Source: Leptolyngbya sp. SIO1E4
GTDB lineage: Bacteria; Cyanobacteriota; Cyanobacteriia; Phormidesmidales; Phormidesmidaceae
DNA length: 64,000 nt
Assembly (NCBI GenBank): GCA_010672825.2
Contig: JAAHFU020000003.1
Location: 868,001 to 932,000, forward strand
Direction of reading: 5' to 3'
The position numbers and the translations under genes are program-made. The notes beneath the pieces are model-generated. The model was not told where the DNA came from and did not search any database. It saw only the letters and a list, made by a program, of their open reading frames with translations. How positions within the stretch are numbered: the stretch's first letter is position 1; every line of letters begins with the position of its first letter. Positions 2,487 to 26,015 of this stretch are shown here, one piece after another.

Positions 2487-2773
2487 ACTATGACACTGCC
2501 CTCGAAGCCTTAGAAAGCCAAGCTGTAGCGCCCGATGAGCTGCAAGACGACATCGATCGCTTGGCTCGTATCCTGGTAGCCCTGATTCGACAGCTGCGCC
2601 CAGATCTGGCCCTTCTCTACGTTGACCATGACGAACCGATGATTGCTGACCTGCTGGCAGAGTTTGGTGAAGACGGGCTGATTGAAGAGTTAGTGGGACA
2701 AGGCCCGGCAATACTTACGGTGAGCAGGCGTAAAGCCCCCGTGTTTCAACCGGGGGATATAAGCGCGGGCTGA
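2483..2773 (+). CDS. cassette gene 8, C-terminus rewritten by IS insertion
   Basis: Homologous to 80-residue proteins at 34,978 and 19,965, which end ...SPAILTT and ...SPATLTT. Here the frame reads GPAILT and then enters the left end of the IS element, adding a foreign tail of about 16 residues (VSRRKAPVFQPG...). The native part is a predicted coiled-coil helix (ALEALESQAVAPDELQDDID), then RQLRPDLALLYVDHDE and LLAEFGEDGLIEELVG. The protein may still work because only the last residue or two changed. Confidence 0.65.
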   Translation: MNYDTALEALESQAVAPDELQDDIDRLARILVALIRQLRPDLALLYVDHDEPMIADLLAEFGEDGLIEELVGQGPAILTVSRRKAPVFQPGDISAG

Positions 2774-2779
2774 ATTGAT

Positions 2780-3184
2780 TCAGTCGTGGTGTGGATCGTT
2801 GATGTAGTTCAGGATTCGCTGAGTACTTATCTTGCCAGTGGTGTCGAATCCATACGAATGTGTCCACAAGCTAGGTAGCTTGCAAAGATGCGGAAACTCC
2901 TGTCTAAGCAGCCTGGACGAACGCCCTTTGAATGCCTTCACGACTTGCGAGATAGAGTGCTTTGGATCGTACTCAACCAGTAAATGAACATGATCCGAGG
3001 CTATCTCCAGAGCCTTAATGAACCAGCCTTTCTCTGCAGCCACATCCTGAAAAATGCTGGCGCAACGGCTTTTCAAGTCCTGGCGCTCGTGAAACACTCG
3101 TTTTCGTCTGCACGGAATCCAGATCAGGTGAACCGTCGCCAATCCGACTGCATGGCGATAATGCCTATACTCTGTTTCACTCAT
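2780..3184 (-). CDS. tnpA: IS200/IS605 Y1 transposase TnpA
   Basis: A 134-residue single-strand transposase. The HUH motif is SDHVHLLVEY near the middle; the candidate nucleophile Tyr is in ILNYIND close to the C-terminus. IPCRRKRVF at the start is typical of the family. The start at 3184 (MSETEYRHYRH) gives the usual Y1 length; an upstream ATG at 3238 would overlap the tnpB start region. It is divergent from tnpB. Confidence 0.88.
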   Translation of the reverse strand: MSETEYRHYRHAVGLATVHLIWIPCRRKRVFHERQDLKSRCASIFQDVAAEKGWFIKALEIASDHVHLLVEYDPKHSISQVVKAFKGRSSRLLRQEFPHLCKLPSLWTHSYGFDTTGKISTQRILNYINDPHHD

Positions 3185-3229
3185 TGTAGATATTGGCGTG
3201 CTGTCTACAGCGTTAGTATAATTGCACTC

Positions 3230-4417
3230 ATGAAGCAAGTTACGACTACGCTCAAACTAAAGTTTCTAGACCTCAATCGGGTCAAAGCTTTAGCGTTTGC
3301 CGATACTGCTGAGGCAGCGACTGAATTGGCCAATGAGCTGGTCAAGTTGCCGCTCAAAGAGCGCAAGCAATTGACCACGGCAAAGGTAGTGACGCCGCTC
3401 AAGTCGGCGCTATCGAATCAGGTGATTCGCATCCTGAGAGGTAGAGCAGGCAAACGTGTGAATGCTTTTAAGCGGTTTTGGCCTGAGGTCAATAATCAAA
3501 ACTGGAAGCTATGCAAGGTAGGTAAGACCTACTCTGTTAGCTTCCCCACGATTCAGGGTGATAAGCGAGTCCCGTTGGAAGTGGCAGATAGCCACTATGC
3601 AGCACAGCTAGACAGTGTTCTAGCTGGCGTTGGGACTCGGGGCACGCTCAAGCTGATGCAGCTCTCTGGTGTCTGGTATGCAGTGCTTTCAATCACTTGG
3701 GATGTTCCCGAAGTGGAGAGTACCGAGCGTATCGGCGTAGACCGGGGACAGAATCGTTTAGCCGTTGCCGTCACTGGAAAGGGTCGAGCTGTCTTCTTCG
3801 ACGGAGCTGAGGTGGTTCACCGTCGCCGCAGATTTCAGCGTCTACGGATGCAGTTGCAGAAGGCGGGCAAGTATCGAGCGGTGAAAAAGTTGGAGCGTCG
3901 GGAACGACGGTGGATGCGTGAGGTGAATCACACCATTAGCCGTCGTATCGTTCGCTTTGCCTACGCAGTGAATGCCGATGTCTGGGTAGAAGATTTGTCG
4001 GGTATTCGGCAAACCTCGAAGCAGCGTCGTAAAAACCGCTCTGACGCAGGAACGTCGCGGCACACCTGGGCCTACTACGACTTAGAGCAGAAGCTTGGCT
4101 ACAAGCTGGCGCTAACTGGTCGGTCAATGCATAAGCGGCCACCCAACTACACATCGAAGACCGATCACCGCAATGGCTTGATAGGCAAGCGTAATGGCCA
4201 TGCATTCACTGGGGCTGATGGCTACCAGTGCGATGCAGACTGGAACGCAGGCTTCAATCTGGCTAAGTGGGATGGGTTTTCGTGCGCCCTGGAGCTAAAA
4301 GAAGCTATGCCTGTAATGGGCTTAGTCGCTTCAGGGCGCGGGGTCTTTGACAGTCCCCTTAACTCCATGAATGCATTTCAGATGCAACAGCTAACGCTGT
4401 TTCCTGAAGTGAGCTAG
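3230..4417 (+). CDS. tnpB: TnpB RNA-guided nuclease, zinc-finger variant
   Basis: A 395-residue protein with RuvC-I GVDRGQNRLAVAV, RuvC-II Glu in VWVEDLSGIR and RuvC-III Asp in CDADWNAGFNLA. In canonical TnpB two CxxC pairs lie between RuvC-II and -III. Here that stretch reads YTSKTDHRNGLIGKRNG...YQCDAD with only one Cys, so the zinc ribbon is lost or replaced. The start at 3230 is 45 nt from the tnpA start. The protein would use a guide RNA from the element's right end. Confidence 0.85.
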   Translation: MKQVTTTLKLKFLDLNRVKALAFADTAEAATELANELVKLPLKERKQLTTAKVVTPLKSALSNQVIRILRGRAGKRVNAFKRFWPEVNNQNWKLCKVGKTYSVSFPTIQGDKRVPLEVADSHYAAQLDSVLAGVGTRGTLKLMQLSGVWYAVLSITWDVPEVESTERIGVDRGQNRLAVAVTGKGRAVFFDGAEVVHRRRRFQRLRMQLQKAGKYRAVKKLERRERRWMREVNHTISRRIVRFAYAVNADVWVEDLSGIRQTSKQRRKNRSDAGTSRHTWAYYDLEQKLGYKLALTGRSMHKRPPNYTSKTDHRNGLIGKRNGHAFTGADGYQCDADWNAGFNLAKWDGFSCALELKEAMPVMGLVASGRGVFDSPLNSMNAFQMQQLTLFPEVS

Positions 4418-4456
4418 ACAGGAGAATCCCCCACCATTTATGCGGGGGAGTGTCAA
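4320..4456 (+). ncRNA. probable TnpB right-end RNA (reRNA)
   Basis: Inferred by position. In IS605-family elements the TnpB guide RNA comes from the end of tnpB and the right end, with the guide in flanking DNA. The right-end hairpin (4428-4448) and the TCAA end lie here, and a guide would start at 4457. The 5' limit is arbitrary. Confidence 0.4.
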
Positions 4457-4914
4457 CTACCTATGTTTTTGGCATGGTCAGGGATGCTGCTCGTAATGTC
4501 AAAAAGGGTAGGGGGTCTATTCAAAAGGATGTGGCCTCAACCGTTCAGTGTGTTGAGGATCAAGTTTGGGTTACTCGTGATGGCGATCGCTTGGTTGTGC
4601 CAGAGGAACCAGAAGTCATTGAGCTTGGCACCTGGCCATCTGATGAATTGCCTCCTGTCTATGTTGAGGTTTGTGGCGTTCGCAATCCCTCAACTCGTGC
4701 TCGCAATGTTCGATATCGTGTGGCTTGTTCCCCTGGATGGCAGATTGAATTCTCGATTATTTGGGATGCTGCAGTTGTCTCAAGGTACGAGATGGAGCAA
4801 GTTGTCTCCCTGGGTGGCACATTAACTGGAATAGCTGATGGTCGAACAGCTGGTTATGGACGGTTCAAATTAGTTGATTGGCAAGTTTGTGATGACCTCA
4901 GCTCAGTCGCTTGA
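4457..4914 (+). pseudogene. RAMP/Cas7-like phage protein, 5'-truncated by IS
   Basis: The frame is open from the IS right end for about 150 codons. It aligns with the intact protein at 20,593-21,171 from that protein's middle onward (AARNVKKGRG here, GAKKHKLGQQ there). Both end in a glycine-rich loop plus GRF: LTGIADGRTAGYGRF here and LQVGVGTWRPRHGRF there. The N-terminal ~80 residues (LHNGR...NPLDP region) are missing, removed at the IS junction. A GTG at 4450 inside the IS end could start a truncated product. The fold call is inference from the loop. Confidence 0.55.
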
Positions 4915-5299
4915 ATCTCTTTATTGGCAAATTAAACATCGCCGCCGCTATGCAGCGCTAAAGCAGCTTCACCCAGGACATTGCAAGCGTCCTCCTGCTT
5001 GGCAATGGCAGCAACTAAGGCAACGAGTTTACGAGCTAGCTGATGGAATATGCCAATCTCCTGAGCAAAGCAGCCCTAAATCGTCTGGGCATTGCTTGGA
5101 CGCAGTTAGTTTAGATGTTGGCCATTGCGACCACATCATCCCGTTATCTAGTGGTGGACATAACCACATCAGCAACCTCCGCTGGCTATGCCCTGTGTGC
5201 CATGCTTGGCGAGAGGGAGAGAGCCACGCTAGCTTACGCAGTTGTTTGATTAAAAAGGGTGTAGTCCCTCATAACAATCAGCCTGCAACTTGGGTTTAG
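4892..5299 (+). CDS. HNH endonuclease
   Basis: A 135-residue protein with the HNH/zinc arrangement GHCDHIIPLSSGGHNHISNL followed by RWLCPVCHAW, giving the His-Asn-His core and CxxC. The N-terminus is basic (IKHRRRYAALKQLHPGHCKR). ATG 4892 overlaps the end of the truncated RAMP-like gene by 23 nt, so they are one transcription unit. In the second locus an HNH gene precedes the RAMP-like gene instead. The 5-nt-periodic array begins five bases after its stop. Phage HNH proteins often assist packaging; a role with the array is possible. Confidence 0.8.
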   Translation: MTSAQSLESLYWQIKHRRRYAALKQLHPGHCKRPPAWQWQQLRQRVYELADGICQSPEQSSPKSSGHCLDAVSLDVGHCDHIIPLSSGGHNHISNLRWLCPVCHAWREGESHASLRSCLIKKGVVPHNNQPATWV

Positions 5300-5304
5300 T
5301 ACGT

Positions 5305-5419
5305 GTCCGGTCGAGACCTGTTCTGGCGACTCCTGTCTTGTTGAGTCGAGTCCGGTCAAGTCTGGCCCTGTCAGGTTAAGTCACGCCCCGTTGAGTCGAG
5401 TCCGGTCAAGTCATGTTTG
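5305..5419 (+). repeat. 5-nt-periodic degenerate array (23 x GTYNN)
   Basis: Twenty-three consecutive pentamers in one register from 5305. Position 1 is G in 22, position 2 is T in 19, position 3 is a pyrimidine in all 23, and positions 4-5 vary. Examples in order from 5340: GTTGA, GTCGA, GTCCG, GTCAA, GTCTG. The block GTTGA-GTCGA-GTCCG-GTCAA occurs twice (5340 and 5390). No CDS fits. It sits between an HNH gene and a hairpin, as does the array at 21,211. Confidence 0.85.
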
Positions 5420-5420
5420 C

Positions 5421-5447
5421 AACCCCACACCTTTTAGGCGTGGGGTT
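5421..5447 (+). terminator. hairpin after pentamer array
   Basis: AACCCCAC (5421-5428) pairs with GTGGGGTT (5440-5447), with a possible inner CCT/AGG stem. The 3' side is followed by GTCATTTATTT, a weak T-rich run. It lies between convergent genes and would end the transcript carrying the array; it may also serve the leftward gene at 5453-6088. Confidence 0.7.
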
Positions 5448-5452
5448 GTCAT

Positions 5453-6088
5453 TTATTTCTCACCAGAATTCCGGTTAATGGCCCCGCGCATGGCCCTGAG
5501 TTTTTTGCGCTCACCCTTGCCCCAATCCTTGAATTCCGCTTCCCTTCTCTGTTTGGGGCTTTTTCTGAGCCAGCAAAGTTCTTCCATCACGGCCAGCATT
5601 TCCGCTGCTGGGCGAGAGGCAGCTATCTCGTAAGCCAGGTCAAGGTTGCCGTTGCAGTGGGTGGCGATCGCTGCAATCAGCGCAACCCGGTCGGTAAGGC
5701 CGCCTTTGCTATCCCCACTGGGATGCCTGGGCTTTGGCGGTTTGTTGAGGGTTTGCAAGGGCGCTTCAACAATGCGATCGCCCTCTATACGGCTGAAGAT
5801 GAGCCAGCTCATCTCACGCGGGGTTATCCAATCAAGGTCGATGCCGTTAAGCGTGAGAATGCGATCGCACAAATATCTGAAACGCTCATCTTGGCGGTAT
5901 AGCTCACCTACCGAGAGAGAGTCTGGGGCTTCACGCGCGATCGCGCGAATTTCCTCGAGGCGTTCCTCAAACTCGAAGATGCCGAGGACAGAACAGCCTG
6001 AAATGATGCGATACCGCCCGCCGCGCGATCTGAATTCCAATTCTCCAGAGCGCAGAAAGCGATAGTCGTAGGCTTCTCGGTTGGACAC
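5453..6088 (-). CDS. phage tail assembly chaperone-like protein
   Basis: A 211-residue protein with a globular N-terminal domain (YDYRFLRSGELEFRSRGG), a helical middle and a basic C-terminus (RKSPKQRREAEFKDWGKGER). It directly follows the major tail protein gene with a 9-nt gap, the usual place of tail assembly chaperones before the tape measure. No slippery site was confirmed, and the tape measure gene is absent: the operon stops here. Assignment is from position and general character. Confidence 0.45.
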   Translation of the reverse strand: MSNREAYDYRFLRSGELEFRSRGGRYRIISGCSVLGIFEFEERLEEIRAIAREAPDSLSVGELYRQDERFRYLCDRILTLNGIDLDWITPREMSWLIFSRIEGDRIVEAPLQTLNKPPKPRHPSGDSKGGLTDRVALIAAIATHCNGNLDLAYEIAASRPAAEMLAVMEELCWLRKSPKQRREAEFKDWGKGERKKLRAMRGAINRNSGEK

Positions 6089-7308: not shown

Positions 7309-7563
7309 GTTCAACACCCCATCACCCCGAAAGGGGACGGAAACGTGCCATGGAAAGTGACGCCTTCAAGTGTCACGGTAGGTTCAACACCCCATCACCC
7401 CGAAAGGGGACGGAAACGCCAGCTTGGTACATAGCGCCGAGTCCACCCGACATCGTTCAACACCCCATCACCCCGAAAGGGGACGGAAACCAGCCTCCAG
7501 TTTTGCTGGGGTGGCATAGTCAGTCGCGTTCAACACCCCATCACCCCGAAAGGGGACGGAAAC
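7309..7563 (+). CRISPR. CRISPR array 1: 4 repeats, 3 spacers
   Basis: Four identical 36-nt repeats start at 7309, 7382, 7455 and 7528. Each begins GTTCAACACCCCATC, contains the ACCCCGAAAGGGG hairpin and ends GACGGAAAC. The three spacers are 37 nt each (7345-7381, 7418-7454, 7491-7527). The repeat resembles the GTTCAACACCC...GGGGAC.GAAAC repeats of cyanobacterial type III arrays. Transcription is rightward from leader 1. No cas gene is in the window, so processing must depend on genes elsewhere. Confidence 0.95.
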
Positions 7564-7629
7564 CGCAGCTACCAACCCAAACTCGACAATATTTCAAGAG
7601 CCAAGCGAGAAAAGGCGTGAACTCGCATC

Positions 7630-13126: not shown

Positions 13127-13739
13127 GTTTCAATCCCCTTTCGGGGTGATGGGGTGTTGAACAAGCATCCGGCCTAGAGTCGATGCTGATTGCAGCGTGT
13201 TTCCGTCCCCTTTCGGGGTGATGGGGTGTTGAACCTGCAAGATATGCTGCGACGATGACATCCGGCCCTGCGTGTTTCCGTCCCCTTTCGGGGTGATGGG
13301 GTGTTGAACCTGAGGACCTGCCGCCAGCACACAATTACTGTGTGTTGTTTCCGTCCCCTTTCGGGGTGATGGGGTGTTGAACCTTTAGCCTTGCCATTAT
13401 CAATGAACTACATGAGGGTTTCCGTCCCCTTTCGGGGTGATGGGGTGTTGAACTTGCATTTGAAGGCTTCCTACAGAGGGAGGTGCCCAGTTTCCGTCCC
13501 CTTTCGGGGTGATGGGGTGTTGAACTGGAGGGAAAAGTATTTGCTCTCCATGGCTACTATGTTTCCGTCCCCTTTCGGGGTGATGGGGTGTTGAACGATG
13601 TGGGTCTCTGGCTCCACTGGTGCAGCCGGTGGGTTTCCGTCCCCTTTCGGGGTGATGGGGTGTTGAACCACGTTAGAAAATGCAGGCAAAACGGGAATAT
13701 TAGGTTTCCGTCCCCTTTCGGGGTGATGGGGTGTTGAAC
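13127..13739 (-). CRISPR. CRISPR array 2: 9 repeats, 8 spacers
   Basis: Nine 36-nt repeats start at 13127, 13199, 13274, 13347, 13418, 13490, 13561, 13633 and 13704, the same repeat as array 1 read on the other strand. Spacers are 35-39 nt. The repeat at 13127 has AA for CG near one end, the degeneracy expected of the leader-distal repeat, so the leader is on the right (13,740-14,043) and transcription is leftward. It converges on array 1 across the phage tail module. No cas genes nearby. Confidence 0.95.
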
Positions 13740-14043
13740 CCCTGCCTTCTGGAAGGCTTGCTGTACAAGGCGTTGAGATAGCCATTTTCGTGGGGGTCTA
13801 ACGGAAGCCGAAATTATTGAGAATTCCTGGCAACAAACCCCTGTGGAAAACGGCTGAAGCCTATACGTATCAACTGATTCGCCAGGGTTGACGAAGTTAT
13901 GCGGGTTTCAAGGTTCGGCAGACCCCCACGAAAGGGGAAGCTTTGTCCCGCATCCTAGCCGCTGAATAGGCATATCCCTGAAATTAGATCATTTCGCAAT
14001 ATTTTGCCGGTTTTCGTACATTCGTACTGTTGGCTGGAATTCC
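13740..14043 (-). promoter_or_regulatory. CRISPR leader 2
   Basis: An inverted, slightly diverged copy of leader 1 (7006-7308), directly next to the newest repeat of array 2. Homology ends at GGAATTCC near 14,043. Leader plus repeat form an inverted repeat of roughly 340 bp flanking the tail module. Confidence 0.75.
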
Positions 14044-14192: not shown

Positions 14193-16919
14193 ATGTCTGA
14201 GCCCCTATCGTCTGACGAAAGGCTTGCCCTACTGCAAACCTTGAATCGATTGCCATCTTCTACTTTTGAGGAGATACGGTATGCCCTCGGGGCTCCCAGA
14301 GATGTTCTGCCAGGGGAGGTAGCGCCTCAAGGGAACCGAGGAGTAGCGTTGCTGGATTGGGCAACAGGGCCAACAGGATGTGGATTGCCTAAAGTACAAC
14401 AGGTTCTGAGGGATATCGTTGCTCGTTCCGAGACGACATCGCAATCAGACGAACCATCTCAGCAGGCTAAAGGCTCGTACTATGACCTCCGGGGGGCTAA
14501 TTTTGCCGGTGGCTTTGCTGAAACCGTGCACGGCAATCAGTTTGGCGGAACTCAGTTCAATGCGGCTCCTGAAACTGAAGAACCGACTTCCCAGGCCCAT
14601 TGGCTAGTTCCCTACCCCCAGAATCCTTTCTTCACGGGGCGAGAGAATTTACTTCAACAGATGCGAGCCACCCTCACTCAACAGAAACGGGCAGCTTTTC
14701 GGGGCTTAGGCGGTATCGGCAAAACCCAGACAGCAGTGGAGTATGTCTATCGCTATCAAAGCGAATACAAGCATATTTTCTGGGTCAGAGCAGAACCTGC
14801 AGAAGAGCTGCTCACGGGCTACACCCAGATTGCTCAAACCTTGCAATTACCGGGCTATGACCCGACTGATCGCCCTGCAGTGGTGGGGCTGGTCAATCGG
14901 TGGTTCGAGGCGAATGAGAGCTGGCTATTGGTTATCGATAATGCGGATGACCTGCGAGCCGTGCGATCGTATCTTCCCCTTCGAGGGGCTGGACATCTGC
15001 TGCTCACGACGCGGGCTCAGGCATTAGGAGATATCGCTCAACCGCTTGAGATAACGAAGATGGGAGCCGATGAAGGGGCACTGTTTTTGCTCAGGAGAGT
15101 GCGATTGTTGTCAGAAGATGCAGATCTCTCTGCAGCATCTGAGGCGGATTTGGGGGTGGCGAGAGCGATCGTGGAGGAAATGGATGGGTTACCCCTGGCT
15201 TTGGATCAGGCGGGTGCCTATATCGAAGAGCAATTCTTGACGCTGGAGGAATATCAAGAGCTATTTCAGGCTGAGAAAGCAGCGCTGCTTCAGGAAAGAG
15301 GTCAACTCGATCCAGATCATCCCAGCGTTACCGTCACCTTCAAATTGGCCTTTGAAAAAGTCGCTCAGCAGAATGCAGCAGCGGCTGACTTGCTCAGAGT
15401 GTGTGCGTTGCTGGCTCCCGATGAGATTCCTGAAGAGATCTTTAGTATTGGTTCAGCCAAGCTAGGAAAGCATTTAAGGCAGATTAGGCAATCTCAGTCG
15501 AAATTCATCAAAGTCATTTCTAATTTTGTAAGCGTCTTACATCGAAATAGGAGTGGTGAGGTTCAGGCAAACAACAAACTAACTTTATCCAAAGCGATTG
15601 CTGAGGCGGCCCGGTTTTCCTTGATTAGCCGTAATCCTCAGACCAAAACCTTAACCATTCATCGCCTGGTGCAAGAAGTGTTAAGGGCTGAGATGGATGA
15701 GGAGAGCCAGAAACAATGGGCGTCAGAGGTGATAGAAGCACTTGGAAGGGTGTTTCCTGATGTTGAGAAGTATGAAAATTGGGTTCAGTGCGATCGGGTG
15801 GCTGCCCATGCTCAGGCGGCTGCTCAACTCATGGCTGACTATGAACTGGCATCTGAAACCGCTGCGTGGCTGCTAGCTGCAACCGGCTACTACTTCAAAG
15901 AACAGGGACGCTATGAGGAAGCCGAACCCATCTACCTCCAAGCCTTGAAAATGAACCAGCAGCTCTTGGGTCAGCGCCATCCTCATGTCGCCATCAGTCT
16001 GAATAATCTCGCGGTACTCTACAAATCCCAAGGGCGCTATGAGGAAGCCGAACCCCTCTACCTCCAAGCCCTGGAAATGAGACAGCAGCTATTGGGAAAG
16101 AGCCATCCCCAGGTTGCTACCAGTCTGAATAATCTCGCGGTACTCTACAAATCCCAAGGGCGCTATGAGGAAGCCGAACCCCTCTACCTCCAAGCCCTGG
16201 AAATGAGACAGCAGCTATTGGGAAAGAGCCATCCCCAGGTTGCTACCAGTCTGAATAATCTCGCGTTGCTTTACGATTTCCAAGGGCGCTATGAGGAAGC
16301 CGAACCCCTCTACCTCCAAGCCCTGGAAATGAGACAGCAGCTGTTGGGCCAGCGCCATCCCCAGGTCGCTACCAGTCTGAATAATCTCGCGTTGCTCTAC
16401 AAATCCCAAGGGCGCTATGAGGAAGCCGAACCCCTCTACCTCCAAGCCCTGGAAATGTTCCAGCAGCTATTGGGAAAGAGCCATCCCGCTGTCGCCACCA
16501 GTCTGAATAATCTCGCGTTGCTCTACAAATCCCAAGGGCGCTATGAGGAAGCCGAACCCCTCTACCGCCAAGCCTTGGAAATGAGGCAGCAACTCTTGGG
16601 CCAGCGCCATCCTGAGGTCGCCACCAGTCTGAATAATCTGGCGAGTCTCTACCGAGACCAAGGGCGCTATGAGGAAGCCGAACCCCTCTACCGCCAAGCC
16701 CTGGAAATGAGACATCAGCTGTTGGGCCAGCGCCATCCTGAGGTCGCCACCAGTCTGAATAATCTGGCGAGTCTCTACCAGTCCCAAGGGCGCTATGAGG
16801 CAGCCGAACCCCTCTACCAACAAGCCTTGGCTATTTGTGAACAGATTCTAGGGCCAGAGCATCCTCATACTCAGGGCGTGAAAGGGAACCTTCAAAACCT
16901 CTTAGAAAAGAAAGGATAA
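14193..16919 (+). CDS. EAD-NB-ARC-TPR STAND immune-type protein
   Basis: A 908-residue protein. Residues 1-80 are an effector-associated-type domain (LLQTLNRLPSSTFEEIRYAL, GVALLDWATGPTGCGL) shared with the proteins at 39,254, 41,722 and 43,940. After a linker with a short pentapeptide-like stretch comes NB-ARC: P-loop GLGGIGKTQTAVEY, Walker B LLVIDNADD, sensor LLTTRAQAL and GLPLALDQAGAYI. The C-terminus has about eight 42-residue kinesin-light-chain TPRs (GRYEEAEPLYLQALEMRQQL type). TPRs would sense a ligand, NB-ARC would oligomerise, and the EAD would recruit a partner effector such as EAD-TIR. TPR-coding DNA is nearly identical between units, so repeat number can change. Confidence 0.85.
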   Translation: MSEPLSSDERLALLQTLNRLPSSTFEEIRYALGAPRDVLPGEVAPQGNRGVALLDWATGPTGCGLPKVQQVLRDIVARSETTSQSDEPSQQAKGSYYDLRGANFAGGFAETVHGNQFGGTQFNAAPETEEPTSQAHWLVPYPQNPFFTGRENLLQQMRATLTQQKRAAFRGLGGIGKTQTAVEYVYRYQSEYKHIFWVRAEPAEELLTGYTQIAQTLQLPGYDPTDRPAVVGLVNRWFEANESWLLVIDNADDLRAVRSYLPLRGAGHLLLTTRAQALGDIAQPLEITKMGADEGALFLLRRVRLLSEDADLSAASEADLGVARAIVEEMDGLPLALDQAGAYIEEQFLTLEEYQELFQAEKAALLQERGQLDPDHPSVTVTFKLAFEKVAQQNAAAADLLRVCALLAPDEIPEEIFSIGSAKLGKHLRQIRQSQSKFIKVISNFVSVLHRNRSGEVQANNKLTLSKAIAEAARFSLISRNPQTKTLTIHRLVQEVLRAEMDEESQKQWASEVIEALGRVFPDVEKYENWVQCDRVAAHAQAAAQLMADYELASETAAWLLAATGYYFKEQGRYEEAEPIYLQALKMNQQLLGQRHPHVAISLNNLAVLYKSQGRYEEAEPLYLQALEMRQQLLGKSHPQVATSLNNLAVLYKSQGRYEEAEPLYLQALEMRQQLLGKSHPQVATSLNNLALLYDFQGRYEEAEPLYLQALEMRQQLLGQRHPQVATSLNNLALLYKSQGRYEEAEPLYLQALEMFQQLLGKSHPAVATSLNNLALLYKSQGRYEEAEPLYRQALEMRQQLLGQRHPEVATSLNNLASLYRDQGRYEEAEPLYRQALEMRHQLLGQRHPEVATSLNNLASLYQSQGRYEAAEPLYQQALAICEQILGPEHPHTQGVKGNLQNLLEKKG

Positions 16920-16926
16920 GTTTGAC

Positions 16927-17688
16927 CTAAGCCCCTTCACCCAGATTGCGTTGCCTTTCGCCTTCCCCGCCATAAAAGTGATCATCCAGCCGCCGCATTA
17001 GCTCACGGGGTAGCTTTTTGGTCACATGCGCTGCGGGTTCTTCAATCCAGTCCTCATCCCGAATGCCGACCGACCTCAACCATTCCCGGCACTGTTGATT
17101 GGCTTTGCGGCCCTTACCAAACCCATAGCGCTTAGCTAGCTCAGTGATAGTGGCACCGTCGTAGCGTTCGCAGCGGCCATAGGCGTCTGTGATCACCGTC
17201 ACTGGTCGTTCCACTTCAACCACTGCTTCAGGTTTGCCGAAAGCTAGAGCGGGCAACCCTGGATTGATCAGGGCCAGCATCTGGGTGCTCACTGCCAAGC
17301 GTTCTCGGGTCTGGGCTAAAGCCAGCTCTAGTTTCAACTTCTCAATCTCATGTTGCTGGGCAGGAATAACCGTTTGAATGACCTGCTTAGCTGCTGAGAA
17401 GGCTTTGACCAGTTTCAACTTGCACTGAACTACTCGATCCGTGTTGCGGCTTAAAGTCATTACAAAGGTGGCTTGATCTTCCGTTAGCCAGGCGAAACGT
17501 GCTGGTTGACCTCGTCCTTTGATTTCTGCGATTTCAAATCGCAGTATTCCAAACCCGTTCTCTATCCGACTTTGGTACTTGTCGAGTGTTTTTACAAAGC
17601 TGCGATGTTCAATTCCTAGATCCTGAGCAATGAGCCGACTGTCAACGACTAGGGCATCGCCGTGCTGCACAACTGTAAGCTTAGACAT
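16927..17688 (-). CDS. Rha-family phage regulatory protein
   Basis: A 253-residue protein. The N-terminal ~100 residues match the phage Rha pattern: VDSRLIAQDLGIEHRSFVKT, FAWLTEDQATFVMTLSRNT, VQCKLKLVKAF. A coiled-coil (EIEKLKLELALAQTRERLA) links to a C-terminal DNA-binding-like domain (ITELAKRYGFGKGRKANQ ... CREWLRSVGI). Its last ~58 codons are duplicated as a remnant at 38,885. It is beside and co-directional with the XRE gene at 17,806, so probably an antirepressor-type regulator. Confidence 0.75.
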   Translation of the reverse strand: MSKLTVVQHGDALVVDSRLIAQDLGIEHRSFVKTLDKYQSRIENGFGILRFEIAEIKGRGQPARFAWLTEDQATFVMTLSRNTDRVVQCKLKLVKAFSAAKQVIQTVIPAQQHEIEKLKLELALAQTRERLAVSTQMLALINPGLPALAFGKPEAVVEVERPVTVITDAYGRCERYDGATITELAKRYGFGKGRKANQQCREWLRSVGIRDEDWIEEPAAHVTKKLPRELMRRLDDHFYGGEGERQRNLGEGA

Positions 17689-17805
17689 GGCTTCACCTAT
17701 GGCTTAACTGACTGGGTGGAGTAAAGGAGCGATCGCGGGGCCGTGGTAAGTGGCGCGATCGCTTCATGCTTTTCAAAGTGAAATTGCCGTGTGATGCCTT
17801 ACGAA

Positions 17806-18042
17806 CTAGGGCTCACCTGTCTCTTCAACTATTTCCGGGATGTAGCGAAGCAGATCCCCTGGTTGGCACTCCAGCACACGACAGAGCTTTTCCAGGGTTG
17901 TCCGATCCAATCGCGGGGGCATTTCGTAAGTATTTTTCAGCTTATTGACGGTAACAGGATGCAAATCGGCCAGTTCTGCAACTCGCCTGTAATCCATTTC
18001 CCTGTCGGCCATAACTGCTGCCAGCCGCCACTTGATCGGCAT
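17806..18042 (-). CDS. XRE/Cro-type repressor (switch locus 2)
   Basis: About 78 residues from MPIKWRLAAVMADREMDY. HTH: YRRVAELADLHPVTVNKLKN, then LEKLCRVLECQPGDLLRYIP, the YozG/Cro-C1 pattern. An ATG nine codons upstream (18,069) is possible. Divergent from cassette copy 2. Unlike the repressor at locus 1, it faces direct and inverted ATTAGTCGAAA sites. Confidence 0.8.
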   Translation of the reverse strand: MPIKWRLAAVMADREMDYRRVAELADLHPVTVNKLKNTYEMPPRLDRTTLEKLCRVLECQPGDLLRYIPEIVEETGEP

Positions 18043-18132
18043 TAAAGTCTCTTGAACTACTGCGTTCATAACTTTAACCCTTTTGATTAACTTAACCTAT
18101 TCGGCTAACTGGTTAAATATAACAGATAAAAT

Positions 18133-18175
18133 ATTAGTCGAAAAGATTGACATGATTAGTCGAAACGGCTAATAT
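18133..18175 (+). promoter_or_regulatory. cassette copy 2 promoter with ATTAGTCGAAA operators
   Basis: TTGACA (18147-18152), 17 bp, TAATAT (18170-18175): a near-consensus sigma70 promoter. Direct repeats of ATTAGTCGAAA start at 18133 and 18155, 22 bp (two turns) apart, and an inverted half site CGGCTAAT overlaps the -10. A TTCGGCTAAC half site lies further left at about 18,105. The XRE protein at 17,806 is the likely ligand. Confidence 0.75.
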
Positions 18176-18281
18176 TTTAATTGTCAGGGAGCACTACCCA
18201 ATCAAAAGGCACCGCCCCCAGTCCTCCTACAGACAGTTGCGGTGCCTCTGAAATCAACCCTTTAGCAAAGGATTTGACCTT

Positions 18282-18593
18282 ATGTTAACCGAAGCTCCAA
18301 CAATCGCTGTCCTTACCCCTACGACGGCTGTCCCATCCAGCCAAGCCGGATCGATTCTGACTGACGAGGATCTACTGGATTTCCTCTATGACCGCAAAGA
18401 GCTGCGCTGCTTAGCAGCATCCGATGCCTATTTCGGTGACCCGCATCGCTATCCGCGCAGCGAGACCTATATGGCGGGCTATCGCTGGCGGCAACAGGAC
18501 ATGGCTGCACGGCGCATTCCCACCGGCACTCGGACAAATCAACCGATGCTCTGTTGGGGCGAAAGCTACCAGACGGTAGCTGAGCATTTCTGA
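18282..18593 (+). CDS. cassette gene 2, copy 2
   Basis: A 103-residue homologue of the protein at 848-1156, keeping LLDFLYDRKELRCLAA and GTRTNQPMLCWGESYQTV. First gene of this copy, since gene 1 (520-753) is absent here. Its stop overlaps the microprotein ATG. Function unknown. Confidence 0.65.
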   Translation: MLTEAPTIAVLTPTTAVPSSQAGSILTDEDLLDFLYDRKELRCLAASDAYFGDPHRYPRSETYMAGYRWRQQDMAARRIPTGTRTNQPMLCWGESYQTVAEHF

Positions 18594-18661
18594 TGAGTTG
18601 GCTGATTCAGGCGGCTGTGGTGACAGTCGCCATTTCTTTTCTCCTCGCTTCATTGATGTGA
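18593..18661 (+). CDS. 22-residue membrane microprotein, copy 2
   Basis: MSWLIQAAVVTVAISFLLAS then LM; TGATG overlap with the upstream gene. Homologous to 1156-1224 (conserved MSWLIQA) and identical in protein to the copy at 36,492-36,560. Substitutions relative to copy 1 stay hydrophobic. Confidence 0.7.
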   Translation: MSWLIQAAVVTVAISFLLASLM

Positions 18662-18680
18662 CCGCTACAGAGGACTTGAC

Positions 18681-18974
18681 ATGCAAGAACTTTCGATCGC
18701 GCTACCCAAGGGCGTTCCAACGCCTAAATATCAACTGTTTCAACGGGTTCGATATACCTATGCCCAGCAATCCCCCCGAGAAGGCACTGTCACTGGGTTT
18801 GAATACATCAGCGCAGCTGCGGCCCTGGCAGAAGGATTTGGTAGCTATGGCTGGCAGTACAGCATCCGCCCAGAAGCTGGGGTGAACAAACCTTTAGAAG
18901 CGTTGGTGGGAGCAAGATTTGAGTCCGTCATCGTTGAGGAACCAAATATCGAGGGAGTGGCAAATGACGCATGA
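18681..18974 (+). CDS. cassette gene 4, copy 2
   Basis: A 97-residue homologue of 1234-1524 (MQELSIALPKGVPTPKYQLF) with several substitutions in the middle (RYTYAQQSPREGTVTGFEYI), so this copy is more diverged than copies 1 and 3 are from each other. It overlaps the next gene by 11 nt. Confidence 0.65.
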   Translation: MQELSIALPKGVPTPKYQLFQRVRYTYAQQSPREGTVTGFEYISAAAALAEGFGSYGWQYSIRPEAGVNKPLEALVGARFESVIVEEPNIEGVANDA

Positions 18975-19158
18975 TGACCTGATCCCCCTCGATATGGCTG
19001 CAGGGTTGGAGGCGGGCTACCAAAAGCCCTATCGTGGCTGGGCACTGAAACATGAACTTGACCTCAATCACCTGATCGCTTGGGAGATGTTTAGACACGA
19101 GATGCTCTACATCGCCAGTCTGATGCCCTACTCGTTGCTAGGAGGGGATGACGCATGA
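18964..19158 (+). CDS. cassette gene 5, copy 2
   Basis: A 64-residue homologue of 1514-1702 (MTHDDLIPLDMAAGLEAGYQ). ATG inside the end of the previous gene (GCATGATG). It ends in GGDDA and overlaps the next ATG by 4 nt. Confidence 0.6.
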   Translation: MTHDDLIPLDMAAGLEAGYQKPYRGWALKHELDLNHLIAWEMFRHEMLYIASLMPYSLLGGDDA

Positions 19159-19682
19159 TTACGACCGATCAACTACTGGAACGCCTCAATAAACTCGAAG
19201 CGCAATCCCAGCTCGGCTTCGGCCCTGCCCCCATCACCAGAACGATTCACTGTAAACGCCGGGAAGAGTGCCTCTGGTACTTCTGGAATGGCCCTGAGGG
19301 GGCAGAACCGATCGCTTATGAAGCCATCACCGGCTATGCCCGTGAGCTGCGCATTACGCAGGGTGAGTACAAAAACAAACCGACCTATCATCTGCAGTTG
19401 GTGCTGGAGTGTCACAATCGCTCGTTTGTTTTAGAGGCGGGTGCAACCTCTGTGTTCTCCAAGGGGCTAATCCTAGCCCTGGCAGCGCTTACCCCAGAGC
19501 AATTGCAACAACCGATTACGGTCTGCCCTCAAGCCAGTCAGGACGAAGAAAAGGCATTGTTCTGTCGCCTCTATCAAGGTGCAGAGCTAATCCGAACCGT
19601 GTGGCCTAAAGAGGATGAATCTGCGGCGTTTCGCTTCCTATTGGAGCAAGCCAAAACCAATGTCACCGATGCCCATCGATAA
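19155..19682 (+). CDS. cassette gene 6, copy 2
   Basis: A 175-residue homologue of 1705-2247, with a five-residue-shorter N-terminus (MITTDQLLERLNKLEAQSQL) but otherwise nearly identical, including the FSKGLILALAALTPEQL helix. See that entry for the fold discussion. Confidence 0.65.
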   Translation: MITTDQLLERLNKLEAQSQLGFGPAPITRTIHCKRREECLWYFWNGPEGAEPIAYEAITGYARELRITQGEYKNKPTYHLQLVLECHNRSFVLEAGATSVFSKGLILALAALTPEQLQQPITVCPQASQDEEKALFCRLYQGAELIRTVWPKEDESAAFRFLLEQAKTNVTDAHR

Positions 19683-19752
19683 CTGGGCCCGATCGCTGCC
19701 AGATATCAGTGTGTGTTCCTTCCTCTTTCCCCTCATCGAGGCTCAATGCCTT

Positions 19753-19998
19753 ATGGATGAAGCTATCCGAATCTATTTTGAAACCAGTAATCGCCTGGAT
19801 GAAATCAAGCTCAAAGCCAGCAATGTCCGTATAGGCGATATCGAAACCTTAGTACAGCAATTCAAAGAAACCATTACCCAAAGAGCGATTGCGGCTGAAG
19901 CACTGTCAGCCCATGAATCACCTGAGATCAGAGCCGCGATCAACGAATTGAGAGGACTTAAACCATGTGGAGTAGACAGCAATACGACGATGCCCTAG
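19753..19998 (+). CDS. small helical protein unique to cassette copy 2
   Basis: An 81-residue protein starting MDEAIRIYFETSNRLDEIKL, almost wholly helical and likely coiled coil (IETLVQQFKETITQRAIAAE). It takes the slot of gene 7 in copies 1 and 3 but is not similar to it. Overlaps the next gene by 34 nt. Function unknown. Confidence 0.55.
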   Translation: MDEAIRIYFETSNRLDEIKLKASNVRIGDIETLVQQFKETITQRAIAAEALSAHESPEIRAAINELRGLKPCGVDSNTTMP

Positions 19999-20231
19999 CG
20001 GCATTGGAAAGCAAGGCCACGGCCCAAGAAGACTTGGCCACCAACCTGGGAAATAGTGTGACTAGCCTGAGCTATGTCATGGCAGAGCTGGCGAGGCGAC
20101 TGCGCCCCGATTTGACATTGATGTATGCCGACCATGATGAGGCGATGGTCGCGGCTCTGCTGGCAGAGTTTGGCGAGGACGGACTGATTGAAGCGCTGAT
20201 TGGCTACAGCCCCGCAACGCTTACGACTTAA
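19965..20231 (+). CDS. cassette gene 8, copy 2
   Basis: An 88-residue homologue of 2483-2773, with an eight-residue insertion in the first helix and the shared end RRLRPDLTLMYADHDEAM ... FGEDGLIEALIGYSPATLTT. It shows the native C-terminus lost at the IS junction in copy 1. Confidence 0.65.
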   Translation: MWSRQQYDDALAALESKATAQEDLATNLGNSVTSLSYVMAELARRLRPDLTLMYADHDEAMVAALLAEFGEDGLIEALIGYSPATLTT

Positions 20232-20276: not shown

Positions 20277-20732
20277 GTGAATCCAGGCTATGACGCCTAT
20301 TTGAACTCTGAGGCATGGCAGCGCAAACGACAGCAGGTTTTAGAACGAGATGGCTGGCAATGCCGGTGCTGTGACGCGATCGCTCAGGGGCGCTACTCCA
20401 AAGCAGATCTGCAAGTCCATCACCGGCACTATGACCACTTTGGCAATGAACCGCTCGAAGACCTGACCACCCTTTGCCCGGAATGCCATGACGCCATTAC
20501 AGCCGTTCATCGCAGACGACGGTATAGCGCTAAGAATCTGCCTGATTTATGTGCTGAACCAACCCTTTCAAGGTCTATTGAGGTTACGAAATATGGCACT
20601 GAAGTATCAAACCTTTCGGTTGATGGGGCTTGCCCCGATCATCCTGCACAACGGACGAACAGCCAATCCATTGGATCCATGGGCAAAGGCTCTCAAAGCT
20701 ATCTCAAGCAAGCGTTCCAAGACAGATGCTGA
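20277..20732 (+). CDS. HNH endonuclease, 3' end overlapping RAMP-like gene
   Basis: GTG start. The HNH/zinc core is VLERDGWQCRCCDAIA, DLQVHHRHYDHFGNEPLEDL, TTLCPECHDAITAVHRRRR. The HNH fold should finish by about residue 85. The rest reads through into the next gene in another frame for 140 nt, an unusually long overlap, so the original stop may have been lost by mutation or frameshift. It is the locus-2 counterpart of the HNH at 4892, though the two are not close in sequence and the gene order relative to the RAMP-like gene is reversed. Confidence 0.75.
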   Translation: MNPGYDAYLNSEAWQRKRQQVLERDGWQCRCCDAIAQGRYSKADLQVHHRHYDHFGNEPLEDLTTLCPECHDAITAVHRRRRYSAKNLPDLCAEPTLSRSIEVTKYGTEVSNLSVDGACPDHPAQRTNSQSIGSMGKGSQSYLKQAFQDRC

Positions 20733-21171
20733 CTATAAAGAGATGGCCCGAATTGAATGGTATGCCAGCCTTTATCAGAACAAAGAAGGCCGCATCATAT
20801 TGCCTGCCATGATGATTGAGGCGGCCCTGGTAAATGGCGCGAAAAAGCATAAGTTGGGCCAACAAGCCAAAGCCGGTCTATTTGTTGAATCTCATACCCT
20901 GCTGGAGTTTGAGGGATGTGAGCTGACAGTAGATGCCCTTTGGGAACGGGGCGAGAATATTTTGACAGTGGCTTGTAATATTCAGCGTAACAAGGTGATG
21001 AGAACCCGCTTCATTGCTGAGGAGTGGGCTGCGAATGTGACCGTGACCTATGACGACGGCCTGTTTAATGCGGCTCGGGTGATTGATGTCATGGAGGTTG
21101 TAGGGCTGCAGGTGGGTGTGGGTACCTGGCGTCCCCGCCACGGGAGGTTTGATACGGAGCCTGCTGGCTAA
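20593..21171 (+). CDS. RAMP/Cas7-like phage protein of unknown function
   Basis: A 192-residue protein. MGLAPIILHNGRTANPLDPW begins a conserved phage pattern, then a Lys-rich KALKAISSKRSKTDADYKEM segment. A middle IEAALVNGAKKHKLGQQAKA follows, and the C-terminal glycine-rich loop LQVGVGTWRPRHGRF resembles the G-loop at the end of RAMP-fold (Cas5/6/7) proteins. Homologous to the truncated gene at 4457. It is followed after 39 bp by a 5-nt-periodic array and hairpin, as in locus 1. RNA binding is a hypothesis; the fold is inferred from motif layout. Confidence 0.55.
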   Translation: MALKYQTFRLMGLAPIILHNGRTANPLDPWAKALKAISSKRSKTDADYKEMARIEWYASLYQNKEGRIILPAMMIEAALVNGAKKHKLGQQAKAGLFVESHTLLEFEGCELTVDALWERGENILTVACNIQRNKVMRTRFIAEEWAANVTVTYDDGLFNAARVIDVMEVVGLQVGVGTWRPRHGRFDTEPAG

Positions 21172-21210
21172 AGCGCTTTTGACCTGGGCATGTCGTTAAA
21201 CGGCCTTGCG

Positions 21211-21285
21211 GTTAGGTCGAGTCGTGTTTGGTATGGCTAGGCATAGCCATGCTTGGTAAGGCCATGTGGTATCAGGTCTGGCTTT
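21211..21285 (+). repeat. 5-nt-periodic degenerate array (15 x GYNNN)
   Basis: Fifteen consecutive pentamers from 21211: GTTAG, GTCGA, GTCGT, GTTTG, GTATG, GCTAG, GCATA, GCCAT, GCTTG, GTAAG, GCCAT, GTGGT, ATCAG, GTCTG, GCTTT. Position 1 is G in 14 of 15 and position 2 a pyrimidine in all 15. Same register logic as the array at 5305 but different pentamers, so the period and GY are kept rather than the sequence. A strong hairpin follows within 10 bp. Confidence 0.8.
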
Positions 21286-21291
21286 CCAGTA

Positions 21292-21332
21292 GGAACCTTT
21301 ACGGTGTGAAAGCCGTGAAGGTTCCTTATTTT
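21292..21332 (+). terminator. strong hairpin terminator after pentamer array 2
   Basis: GGAACCTTTACGG (21292-21304) pairs with CCGTGAAGGTTCC (21313-21325), 13 bp with a single G-T wobble and an 8-nt loop, followed by TTATTTT. It closes the transcript carrying the RAMP-like gene and the array. Confidence 0.85.
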
Positions 21333-22757: not shown

Positions 22758-25700
22758 ATGCAAGTTCTGAAAGGGTTTTGGCAGTTTCTCAACACTGATG
22801 TGCGAGAGATCCCTTGGGGAGAACTGGCTGAAAAAGGCATTGAAGCCGTCACTGCTACGAATGATTTGGGCGAAGCTTGGGAAGAACAAGCGCCCCATAT
22901 CAAAGCACTCACACCCTATCTGCAACAGGTAGAACCGTTTCTTACAACCCTGGATTCCCCGGTCACACAGCTGGCTATCTCTGGACTGCCCTTTGTTTCT
23001 ATCGGCATTGGGCTACTGAGGCTTTATGTCGGGCTATCCAAAACAGAACCCACCACCGAAAGCGCTGTCGTCATTGCTGCTCAATTGGCTTATTTGCAAA
23101 GCCTGGAAGCGCTACTGAGCAACCTGAATGATGAAACGCTGAAGGCCAAACTCAACCAAGTTTCGCTGAAAGCACTGGTCAAAAAACAGCTCACTCGTCT
23201 CGACACCCTAGAACTCAGCTCTACTGAATTAAAAGCGGTGACCAGCCGATTTCGAGAGTCCGTGCTGGCCACGCAGTTGGGGAATGCCTTGGCTGAGCAA
23301 TTACAACAAGCCGGTCTTGATGAGACAGAAACGCGCCGGTTGGTAGAGCAGGTCATTTGGGGTACCCATCGCTATCTGCATCAGGCGATCGCGGAGGCTG
23401 GAGAGAGTGTAGAACCACTGGCAGAGGTCTATCGCACGGGTGGACAACCGATACAAGACCGTTATGACAGTATTGCCACCTACTTGAATGAGGTCATTAC
23501 ACCGCTGCCTCAAGAACAGATCTTTGATGAACGTAACCCACTGATCCGCCTTCAAGACATCTATGTTCAACTCGACGTCCAACCGCTAACACAGGCGGGT
23601 GAAAGGCAAGAAGATACCAGTCCAATTAATAGCCATACCTGGGCCAGAGACCTACTTGAGCAACCTGAGGATAAACCCCGCAAGGTCATGTTTGTCGAAG
23701 GGGAAGCAGGGCGAGGTAAATCCGTTTTCTGTCGCATGTTGGCGGATTGGGTGCGGCGTGAAATGCCGTTTTCATACATTCCGCTGTTGATCCGGTTGCG
23801 TCACATTCGGACACTAGCCAATAACCTGACAGAGACCCTGGAAGACTGCCCTGACCTGGAGCAGGTTAAATTTGTTCGGGGAGATTCAGACTGGCTCGCA
23901 GATCGCAATACCCGGTTCTTAATCATCCTGGATGGGTTTGATGAACTGTTGTTAGAGGGGCGAGCCACTGGTGGATTGAAGGAATTTTTGCAGCAGGTCG
24001 CTGATTTTCAGGCTCGGAGCCACCATCAATGCTTGGTGACAGGAAGACCTTTGGCGCTGCAAGGCGTTGACCGGCTGATTACCCAAACCAAAAACCTGGA
24101 ACGGGCACGGCTTGAACCCTTGAGCGATAGCCTGCGAGAGCAGTGGCTAGAGAACTGGCAAGCCCTTTTTGAGGAAGCAGAGGTCACTCGGTTTCGGGAT
24201 TTCATCCAGGCTTGCCCCGATGAGATTGCTGACAAGCTGGCCCGAGAACCGCTGTTGATTTATCTATTGGCGCGGTTACACCGGGAAAGACGTCTCACCC
24301 GTGAAATGTTTGCTGACACTAGCGATCGGCAGATCCAAGCCAAGCTGCGAGTGTATCGGGAGTCTGTCAACTGGGTACTGGAGAAGCAACGGCAGGATCA
24401 AAACCTGCGACTGGCGGGCCTGGATGATCTGGAAGACCTGCGAGACGTGTTGCGAGAAGCGGCCCTCTGTGTGGTGCAGTCGGGCAATGAAACGGCCCGG
24501 TTGACGATGTTAAAAGACCGATTTCAAGATACCGCCAATCCAGTGGCAAAGTTCCTCAAACAATCGCAGCAAACCACGGGCCAATCAGACGACAAGGCGC
24601 TCAATAATCTACTCACCACGTTTTATCTCAAGCCTGGGGAGGGAGATAAGCGCGGGTCAGTGGAATTTGCCCACAAGAGCTTTGGTGAATACCTCTTTGC
24701 TGAACGGCTCAAAGCGGCTTTTGAAGCCTGGACAGAGATGGATCGCCGGGGAAAACGCCTGATTTTGGATGAGCGCACCGTAAACGAGCAAATCTATGAC
24801 CTGCTGGGTTATGGCGGCCTCAGCGTCGAAATCGTGGAGTACTTATTCGAGCTATTGCAGGAGAGTGATCTGGATCGAGTCAAGCTGTTTGAGCGCCTTC
24901 ACGAGTTTTATCAACGCTGGTGTGCGAAAGATTTTCTGAATCAGCGCCCCACAGAAAATTTGCCCCAGAAAAAGATGCTGCAGCTTACAGATCAGGAGAT
25001 CCTAACTGGCCTTACTCAGGTGGATGTGTTTGCTGGGCTCAACGTGCTGATTATGCTCTTTAAGCTACACGCAGCGGCTCAGCCTGATGGATACCCCCAT
25101 CTACCAGAAGATTCTCCCAAACCTGATATCTGGTTTCACCCTTGCAGTGAACCGGAAACAGACACGTTTGATTCAGGCCAACTGCTCAAAATCATTTACT
25201 ACGCAGACTCTTTAGGATTAGGAGTTTTCACTAGGATTGTTGGCCCGCACCTTTCAAGAGCCTACCTCAACAGCGCCGACCTCTCCAGTGCCTACCTCAA
25301 CAGCGCCAACCTCGCCAGTGCCAACCTCTCCAGCGCCTACCTCCCCAGCGCCTACCTCTACAGCGCCAACCTCGCCAGAGCCAACCTTTCCAGCGCCGAC
25401 CTCGCCAGCGCCATCCTCATCGTTGCCAACCTTTCCAGCGCCATCCTTTCCAGCGCCAACCTCGCCAGAGCCAACCTCGACAGCGCCAACCTCTCCAGCG
25501 CCGACCTCGACAGAGCTGGCCTCTACAACGCCAACCTCGACCACACCAACCTCGCCAGCGCCAACCTCGCCAGCGCCAGCCTCGCCAGCGCCTATCTCAC
25601 TGGCGCCAACCTCGCCAGCGCCAACCTCGCCAGCGCCAACCTCGCCAGCGCCTGCCTCTACAGCACCAATCTCGCCAGCGCCAACCTCGCCAGCGCCAAC

Positions 25701-26015
25701 CTCTCCAGCGCCTACCTCTACAGCACCAACTTTTCCAGCGCCAACCTCGCCAGCGCCGACCTCTACAGCGCCAATCTTGATGGGGCGATTCTGCTCAACA
25801 CAAATTTCCGTGAAGCCAAGAACTTCAATCGTCAGCAGTTAGAAGGCGATACCCCACCGTTAATTTGCAATGTGGCGCTGCCCTCAGAAGTTGAGGTTGA
25901 TGGAAATCGAGACTGCGATCGCTTACCGACTGTCTTGAGAAAAAGATATCCGGATGCGTTTGAAACGCTCGAAGCGGCTAAAGCGTATGTCAATAAGCGG
26001 CGGCAACAAGATTGA
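22758..26015 (+). CDS. NACHT NTPase with C-terminal pentapeptide repeats
   Basis: A 1085-residue STAND protein. Residues 1-300 are helical (EEQAPHIKALTPYLQQVEPF). NACHT follows: Walker A VEGEAGRGKSVFCRMLADW, Walker B FLIILDGFDELLLEG, with a helical/winged-helix arm to ~residue 790 including EFAHKSFGEYLFAERLKAAF. From ~830 to 1020 are pentapeptide repeats of A(N/D)L(A/S)S type forming a quadrilateral beta helix. Proteins of this build are predicted phage sensors. It lies between a rightward portal and a truncated leftward portal. Confidence 0.85.
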   Translation: MQVLKGFWQFLNTDVREIPWGELAEKGIEAVTATNDLGEAWEEQAPHIKALTPYLQQVEPFLTTLDSPVTQLAISGLPFVSIGIGLLRLYVGLSKTEPTTESAVVIAAQLAYLQSLEALLSNLNDETLKAKLNQVSLKALVKKQLTRLDTLELSSTELKAVTSRFRESVLATQLGNALAEQLQQAGLDETETRRLVEQVIWGTHRYLHQAIAEAGESVEPLAEVYRTGGQPIQDRYDSIATYLNEVITPLPQEQIFDERNPLIRLQDIYVQLDVQPLTQAGERQEDTSPINSHTWARDLLEQPEDKPRKVMFVEGEAGRGKSVFCRMLADWVRREMPFSYIPLLIRLRHIRTLANNLTETLEDCPDLEQVKFVRGDSDWLADRNTRFLIILDGFDELLLEGRATGGLKEFLQQVADFQARSHHQCLVTGRPLALQGVDRLITQTKNLERARLEPLSDSLREQWLENWQALFEEAEVTRFRDFIQACPDEIADKLAREPLLIYLLARLHRERRLTREMFADTSDRQIQAKLRVYRESVNWVLEKQRQDQNLRLAGLDDLEDLRDVLREAALCVVQSGNETARLTMLKDRFQDTANPVAKFLKQSQQTTGQSDDKALNNLLTTFYLKPGEGDKRGSVEFAHKSFGEYLFAERLKAAFEAWTEMDRRGKRLILDERTVNEQIYDLLGYGGLSVEIVEYLFELLQESDLDRVKLFERLHEFYQRWCAKDFLNQRPTENLPQKKMLQLTDQEILTGLTQVDVFAGLNVLIMLFKLHAAAQPDGYPHLPEDSPKPDIWFHPCSEPETDTFDSGQLLKIIYYADSLGLGVFTRIVGPHLSRAYLNSADLSSAYLNSANLASANLSSAYLPSAYLYSANLARANLSSADLASAILIVANLSSAILSSANLARANLDSANLSSADLDRAGLYNANLDHTNLASANLASASLASAYLTGANLASANLASANLASACLYSTNLASANLASANLSSAYLYSTNFSSANLASADLYSANLDGAILLNTNFREAKNFNRQQLEGDTPPLICNVALPSEVEVDGNRDCDRLPTVLRKRYPDAFETLEAAKAYVNKRRQQD

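Follow-up and report, generated by a model that had tools for sequence, protein, structure and literature searches.

The window analysed here, a stretch of 64,000 nt from one contig of the cyanobacterium Leptolyngbya sp. SIO1E4, contains two loci, A and B, at which a gene of the family named vipr below, an HNH-family gene, an array of tandem pentamers and a hairpin lie side by side (Table 1). At locus A, the vipr gene persists as a remnant: about 70 N-terminal residues are absent, including the first RRM strand of Vipr, and the place expected for them is occupied by an IS200/IS605-type element, whose end hairpins were located by eye near 2736-2757 and 4429-4450. A tblastn search with the open-frame N-termini of two orthologues (residues 1-72 and 1-82) yielded no significant match in the window. 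The remaining part matched the phage protein family phrog_4652 (E 3.9e-5) and a local phrog_4652 profile (E 1.1e-19), and shares 38-49% identity with longer ORFs of other cyanobacteria. The HNH accessory gene, the array and the hairpin have been retained, and tail-type ORFs surround the locus. Because vipr A is decapitated next to the insertion, locus A is probably not self-sufficient.

Table 1. Coordinates of the features at the VIPR loci; positions refer to the window, except for the third copy.
Feature	Position	Strand	Description
IS200/IS605-type element	2718-4456, ends approximate	+	ORFs, Pfam OrfB_IS605 and Cas12f1-like_TNB
TnpA of the element	2780-3238	-	ORF
TnpB of the element	within 2984-4417	+	ORF, Pfam
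vipr A, C-terminal remnant	4450-4914	+	orthologue residues ~69-212 left
HNH-family accessory gene (vap) of locus A	4874-5299	+	Pfam HNH, E 2.1e-8
vrRNA array A	5305-5419	+	23 GTY/NN pentamers
Predicted hairpin	about 5420-5449	+	3' tail of vrRNA A and/or terminator, -21.8 kcal/mol
Convergent phage ORF	5453-6088	-	tail-assembly-chaperone-like, judged from its position; array A has its best skip-1 match here (5605-5537, in frame)
HNH gene upstream of vipr B	20277-20732	+	overlaps vipr B with its C-terminal third, in a different frame
vipr B, intact	20593-21171	+	192 aa; PDB 36pp match, AF2 model, RAMP fold
vrRNA array B	21210-21284	+	15 units, mostly RGY/NN, directly behind vipr B
3' tail hairpin of vrRNA B	21292-21325	+	stem-loop of 34 nt, with a similar one in the third copy (L254)
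Third, decayed VIPR copy (C, L254)	C4:897307-897540		vipr fragment, GGA-type array, portal-gene piece

The initial annotation of this DNA, made from the sequence alone, had described array A as 23 pentamers in a single register, and our recount reproduced its base counts exactly: G at position 1 in 22 of 23 units, T at position 2 in 19 and a pyrimidine at position 3 in all of them. Positions 1-3 are thus kept and positions 4-5 are free. The array had a mean GTY score of 2.78 out of 3; the window averaged 0.99 (sd 0.17), and the best period-5 site of the opposite strand reached 1.91. Array A is by a wide margin the strongest site of this kind in the window. Information per position reached a mean of 0.86 bit at period 5 and at most about 0.18 at the other periods among 2-9, 11 and 12 nt. 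In the whole 8.2-Mb genome, no other site lies within two mismatches of eight GTYNN units; two further sites at exactly three mismatches (C1:1055865 and C4:620691) look by eye like repeats with longer units. The surroundings had also been described correctly, with an array that starts 5 bp behind the end of the HNH ORF at 5299 and terminates at a predicted hairpin. Neither a protein-coding nor a CRISPR model accounts for the array, as had been stated: a period of 5 fits no reading frame, the pentamers do not form a repeat-spacer arrangement, and no cas gene was found among the ORFs around 4450-5449 and 20277-21325, which were read, the main ones also being scanned. Rfam gave no matches in the window or in six array contigs, hence no hammerhead was seen there.

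We also considered the omega RNA of TnpB, since the element immediately upstream encodes TnpB and has a hairpin at its right end. Such an RNA would sit at the element's right end and overlap the tnpB 3' end. Here, the right end is near 4456, whereas array A begins beyond it and behind another ORF, and elsewhere such arrays track phrog_4652; this candidate was rejected.

The window holds other repeats as well. Two CRISPR-like arrays with the common repeat GTTTCCGTCCCCTTTCGGGGTGATGGGGTGTTGAAC (4 copies on one strand, 8-9 on the other, at a spacing of 71-75) are located among phage genes at 7309-7570 and 13127-13752; both (7309, 13198) are separate from the VIPR loci. Long in-phase repeats occur at 15904-16830, 25260-25774, 27754-28389 and 39167-40098, the units being either 126 nt (TPR-like, within an ORF of NTPase type) or 15 nt (pentapeptide-type) long.

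Locus B is intact at the vipr gene and is followed by a portal gene. Array B, of the GGY/NN type and directly behind the gene at 20,593, was absent from the initial annotation, which had taken the gene upstream of array A for a homologue of the 20,593 gene. This relationship holds at the level of profiles, as both proteins match phrog_4652 (E 2.9e-44 for Vipr B), but pairwise BLASTP returned nothing (E 45). The same plan of HNH gene, vipr, GGY/NN array and hairpin recurs at a locus with a vipr B orthologue (L252), where the HNH gene again lies upstream and the array has 22 units.

While our literature search for GTCNN-type repeats found nothing, a search of solved structures led to the identification of the protein: the phrog_4652 family profile matched PDB entry 36pp, 'SUSP1 Vipr protein', with an E-value of 3.5e-33, and Vipr B alone matched it with 5e-23. 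In agreement with the earlier proposal of a RAMP-like protein, the AlphaFold (AF2) model of Vipr B (pLDDT 94.7) has a predicted Cas7/Csm3-type fold, matching Csm3/Cas7 subunits with a Foldseek E-value of 2e-5 and a VIA Z of about 11, and by title the 50 listed structure matches of the model are entries of RAMP-containing CRISPR effectors. Like Vipr, Vipr B is a single-domain RAMP with an RRM core and a glycine-rich loop, of which vipr A retains the C-terminal part only; G171, G175, R180 and G184 are invariant.

Vipr is the protein of the Viral Interference Programmable Repeat (VIPR) system, reported on bioRxiv in April 2026, in which a phage-borne RAMP is combined with vrRNAs of GGY/NN pentamers carrying a structured tail (PMC13142463). 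Vipr binds the vrRNA and uses its NN letters to find dsDNA, skipping 1 nt between pairs; the system is deployed against competing phages (PMC13142463). Seven types are distinguished, SUSP1 representing type II; the SUSP1 vrRNA is expressed and co-purifies with Vipr, the SUSP1 Vipr homologue is guided to DNA, and characterised vrRNAs have 9-16 repeat units (PMC13142463). The system that the initial annotation had put forward as a candidate undescribed one was therefore already published, although in the literature searched VIPR rests on this one preprint. The central proposal of that annotation, that a RAMP-like phage protein acts together with a 5-nt-periodic RNA, is supported by the predicted fold, by the recurring adjacent arrays presented below and, by analogy, by the co-purification in SUSP1 (PMC13142463).

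An IMG/VR scan for eight GTYNN units returned at least 120 stretches, and many of the listed contigs carry several arrays of 10-40 units each between genes; in one of them, near-identical spacers separate arrays that differ in their NN letters. Before the family search, 39 of the listed contigs with long or multiple arrays were picked out by eye for their array length; 50 others, in which short runs predominate, were taken afterwards from the remaining contigs of the same scan, again according to array length. Among these listed contigs, phrog_4652 was found in 27 of the 39 array-rich ones and in 1 of the 50 controls (Fisher 1.8e-12, with contigs unthinned by lineage and related phages thus counted more than once), and the single positive control has four real arrays. 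An iterated profile seeded by the window protein and four phage proteins was used to place the gene beside the arrays: across 30 loci of the listed viral contigs, gene and nearest array are 0-1000 nt apart, with a median of 31 nt. No close relatives of the window proteins were detected in viral contigs by peptide patterns.

Altogether, 155 phage records encode phrog_4652, mostly Felixounavirus-like and mycobacterial phages. Four annotated phages (Medea1, MakoManhole, prophiBWHA-1 and wV8) have the strongest 5-periodic site of the stretch examined at a phrog_4652-phrog_5926 gene pair, with triplets of the GGY or GT type. Felix O1 matches 40% of the wV8 vipr stretch in three pieces, which suggests that this phage lacks the pair. 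In wV8 (L174), annotated 58-nt direct repeats (DR_4, 19762-19819 and 21155-21212) flank the vipr gene pair, beside or within array stretches. As for orientation, all GTY arrays are on the strand opposite to vipr in 11 viral loci (L093, L049, L115, L042, L111, L056, L078, L041, L074, L033 and L037) and on the vipr strand in 18 others.

These data bear on the idea that array A is functionless, be it a decaying microsatellite, a relic of coding repeats or a derivative of the IS200/IS605 element. The end of that element lies 0.85 kb upstream of the array, and pentapeptide-repeat genes with 15-nt periods are present in the window. On the other hand, keeping positions 1-3 and freeing positions 4-5 is unlike simple-repeat decay, many phages have similar arrays next to genes of a single protein family, and no reading frame explains the period. 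A coding or microsatellite origin was rejected on the constraint on positions 1-3 together with the phrog_4652 association, and we regard the idea as a whole as extremely improbable.

Within the cyanobacteria, the locus A family was found in 14 of 390 genomes of the same class, including its own genome. Of 18 cyanobacterial loci fetched, 17 have a homologue of the HNH gene of locus A adjoining vipr, and in most loci the strongest 5-periodic site is found in the interval separating the two genes. The Leptolyngbya genome itself carries three VIPR loci in its prophages, which have decayed to different degrees: A and B in the window and a third remnant, C, elsewhere. The early-gene modules preceding A and B (1-2719 and 17500-20225) are 73-81% identical in DNA over their matching parts, the module ahead of A (0.8-2.7 kb) having its counterpart ahead of B, and so the two loci lie in related prophage regions. 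Between arrays B and C, almost all NN letters differ, while the tail is kept: 26 of 34 columns of the stem-loop are identical.

A triplet with a 2-nt spacer is also the geometry recognised by TRAP, which binds NAG triplets with 2-nt spacers as an 11-mer ring. The arrays could accordingly be regulatory RNAs, bound by a ring or filament protein and controlling neighbouring genes with no DNA guiding involved, and the frequent distance of some tens of bases between array and vipr would be compatible with this. The triplets here are GTY or GGY. However, free NN variation beside a conserved tail is guide-like and not regulator-like, and the protein is of Cas7 type with a SUSP1 homologue that is guided to DNA (PMC13142463). 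We therefore consider a TRAP-like regulator very unlikely.

Taken together, we are highly confident that array A belongs to a prophage region of this cyanobacterium and encodes the guide RNA of a VIPR system. For SUSP1 and P. fulva, expression, binding of the RNA and the skip rule have been shown (PMC13142463), and by analogy we infer the same behaviour for the cyanobacterial copies. Array A would be transcribed as a vrRNA guide with the hairpin as its 3' tail; Vipr subunits lined up on the RNA would hold the constant GUY triplets, and the variable NN pairs would read dsDNA with one base skipped between pairs. Binding of Vipr would silence the target, on which the HNH accessory protein would also act, possibly by cutting it.

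Both loci share with SUSP1-type VIPR of type II a RAMP-type Vipr, adjacent pentanucleotide arrays (GTY/NN in 23 units at A, mostly RGY/NN in 15 units at B) with a constant triplet and hypervariable NN letters, a structured 3' tail and an accessory gene, here of the HNH family at both loci with a predicted action on DNA. The phage location is likewise shared, given the portal gene behind B and the tail-type ORFs around A. In contrast to SUSP1-like phages, in which a phrog_5926 protein is found beside vipr, the accessory is of the HNH family, and there is one array per locus. Locus A deviates further, in ways that speak against the VIPR reading: its truncated vipr, the GTY instead of GGY triplet, and 23 units compared to the characterised 9-16, a range that array B fits and that the L252 array exceeds as well. 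With the RAMPs of Class 1 CRISPR-Cas (Csm3/Cas7), the system has in common the fold, the glycine-rich loop and a filament on guide RNA with a short fixed period, which is 6 nt in Cas7. Here, in contrast, the units are 5 nt long with the triplet inside the guide itself, and a single RAMP occurs in a locus free of a repeat-spacer array and other cas genes. VIPR has been proposed to be a relative and possible ancestor of CRISPR or of its RAMPs.

We then looked for targets of the guides. Read as NNx codons with a 1-nt skip, array A shows similarity to a motif close to the C-terminal end of the product of ORF 5453-6088. The site matches 28 of 46 letters, is in frame and outscores every other site in the window over skips 0-3; a score of 28 was reached by 16 of 400 shuffled guides window-wide and by 2 of 5000 within this ORF. 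In nine homologues of this ORF, the homologous codons rank first in four, window copy included, and the summed score was reached by 25 of 1000 shuffles, or by 87 of 1000 once the window copy was left out. All these figures flatter the resemblance, as it was spotted by eye before testing. This is suggestive only, but array A may be directed against competing phages, with a tail gene homologous to ORF 5453-6088 as its target. Exact skip-1 patterns of 8-10 units of array A gave chance hits only in viral and genome contigs, no near-complete target turned up in any collection searched, and array B had no target in its own genome, which counts against the VIPR reading. An all-against-all comparison of 129 guides on 1.67 Mb of fetched loci found no targets and no excess at skip 1, so this comparison did not confirm the skip rule of the preprint (PMC13142463).

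Locus A would be either broken or dependent on another Vipr, and locus B intact. If array A were an orphan guide that an intact Vipr uses in trans, Vipr B from 15 kb away being one candidate, the locus would still be functional; the array has stayed regular and the HNH ORF open despite the decapitated vipr. A recent inactivation of vipr A would leave a regular array just as well. Moreover, Vipr A and B have no detectable pairwise similarity, their arrays differ in the triplets (GTY and GGY) and in the 3' hairpins, and cross-use of array A by Vipr B is therefore doubtful; we rate this reading as unlikely. Bolder still, and to our mind a long shot, is the combination in which the HNH-bearing cyanobacterial systems form a distinct branch that cuts its target and does not silence it, guide A reads, in rival phages, a conserved motif within a tail-assembly gene that is akin to the neighbouring one yet different enough to avoid self-targeting, and the array outlives its own vipr with the help of another Vipr in trans.

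The present analysis started from arrays in raw sequence, moved on to the protein and so rediscovered VIPR along a different path. The controlled association test over many phage contigs ties phrog_4652, and in several phages also phrog_5926, to VIPR. Cyanobacterial, HNH-bearing copies are documented here as well, among them those of a genome that carries three loci.
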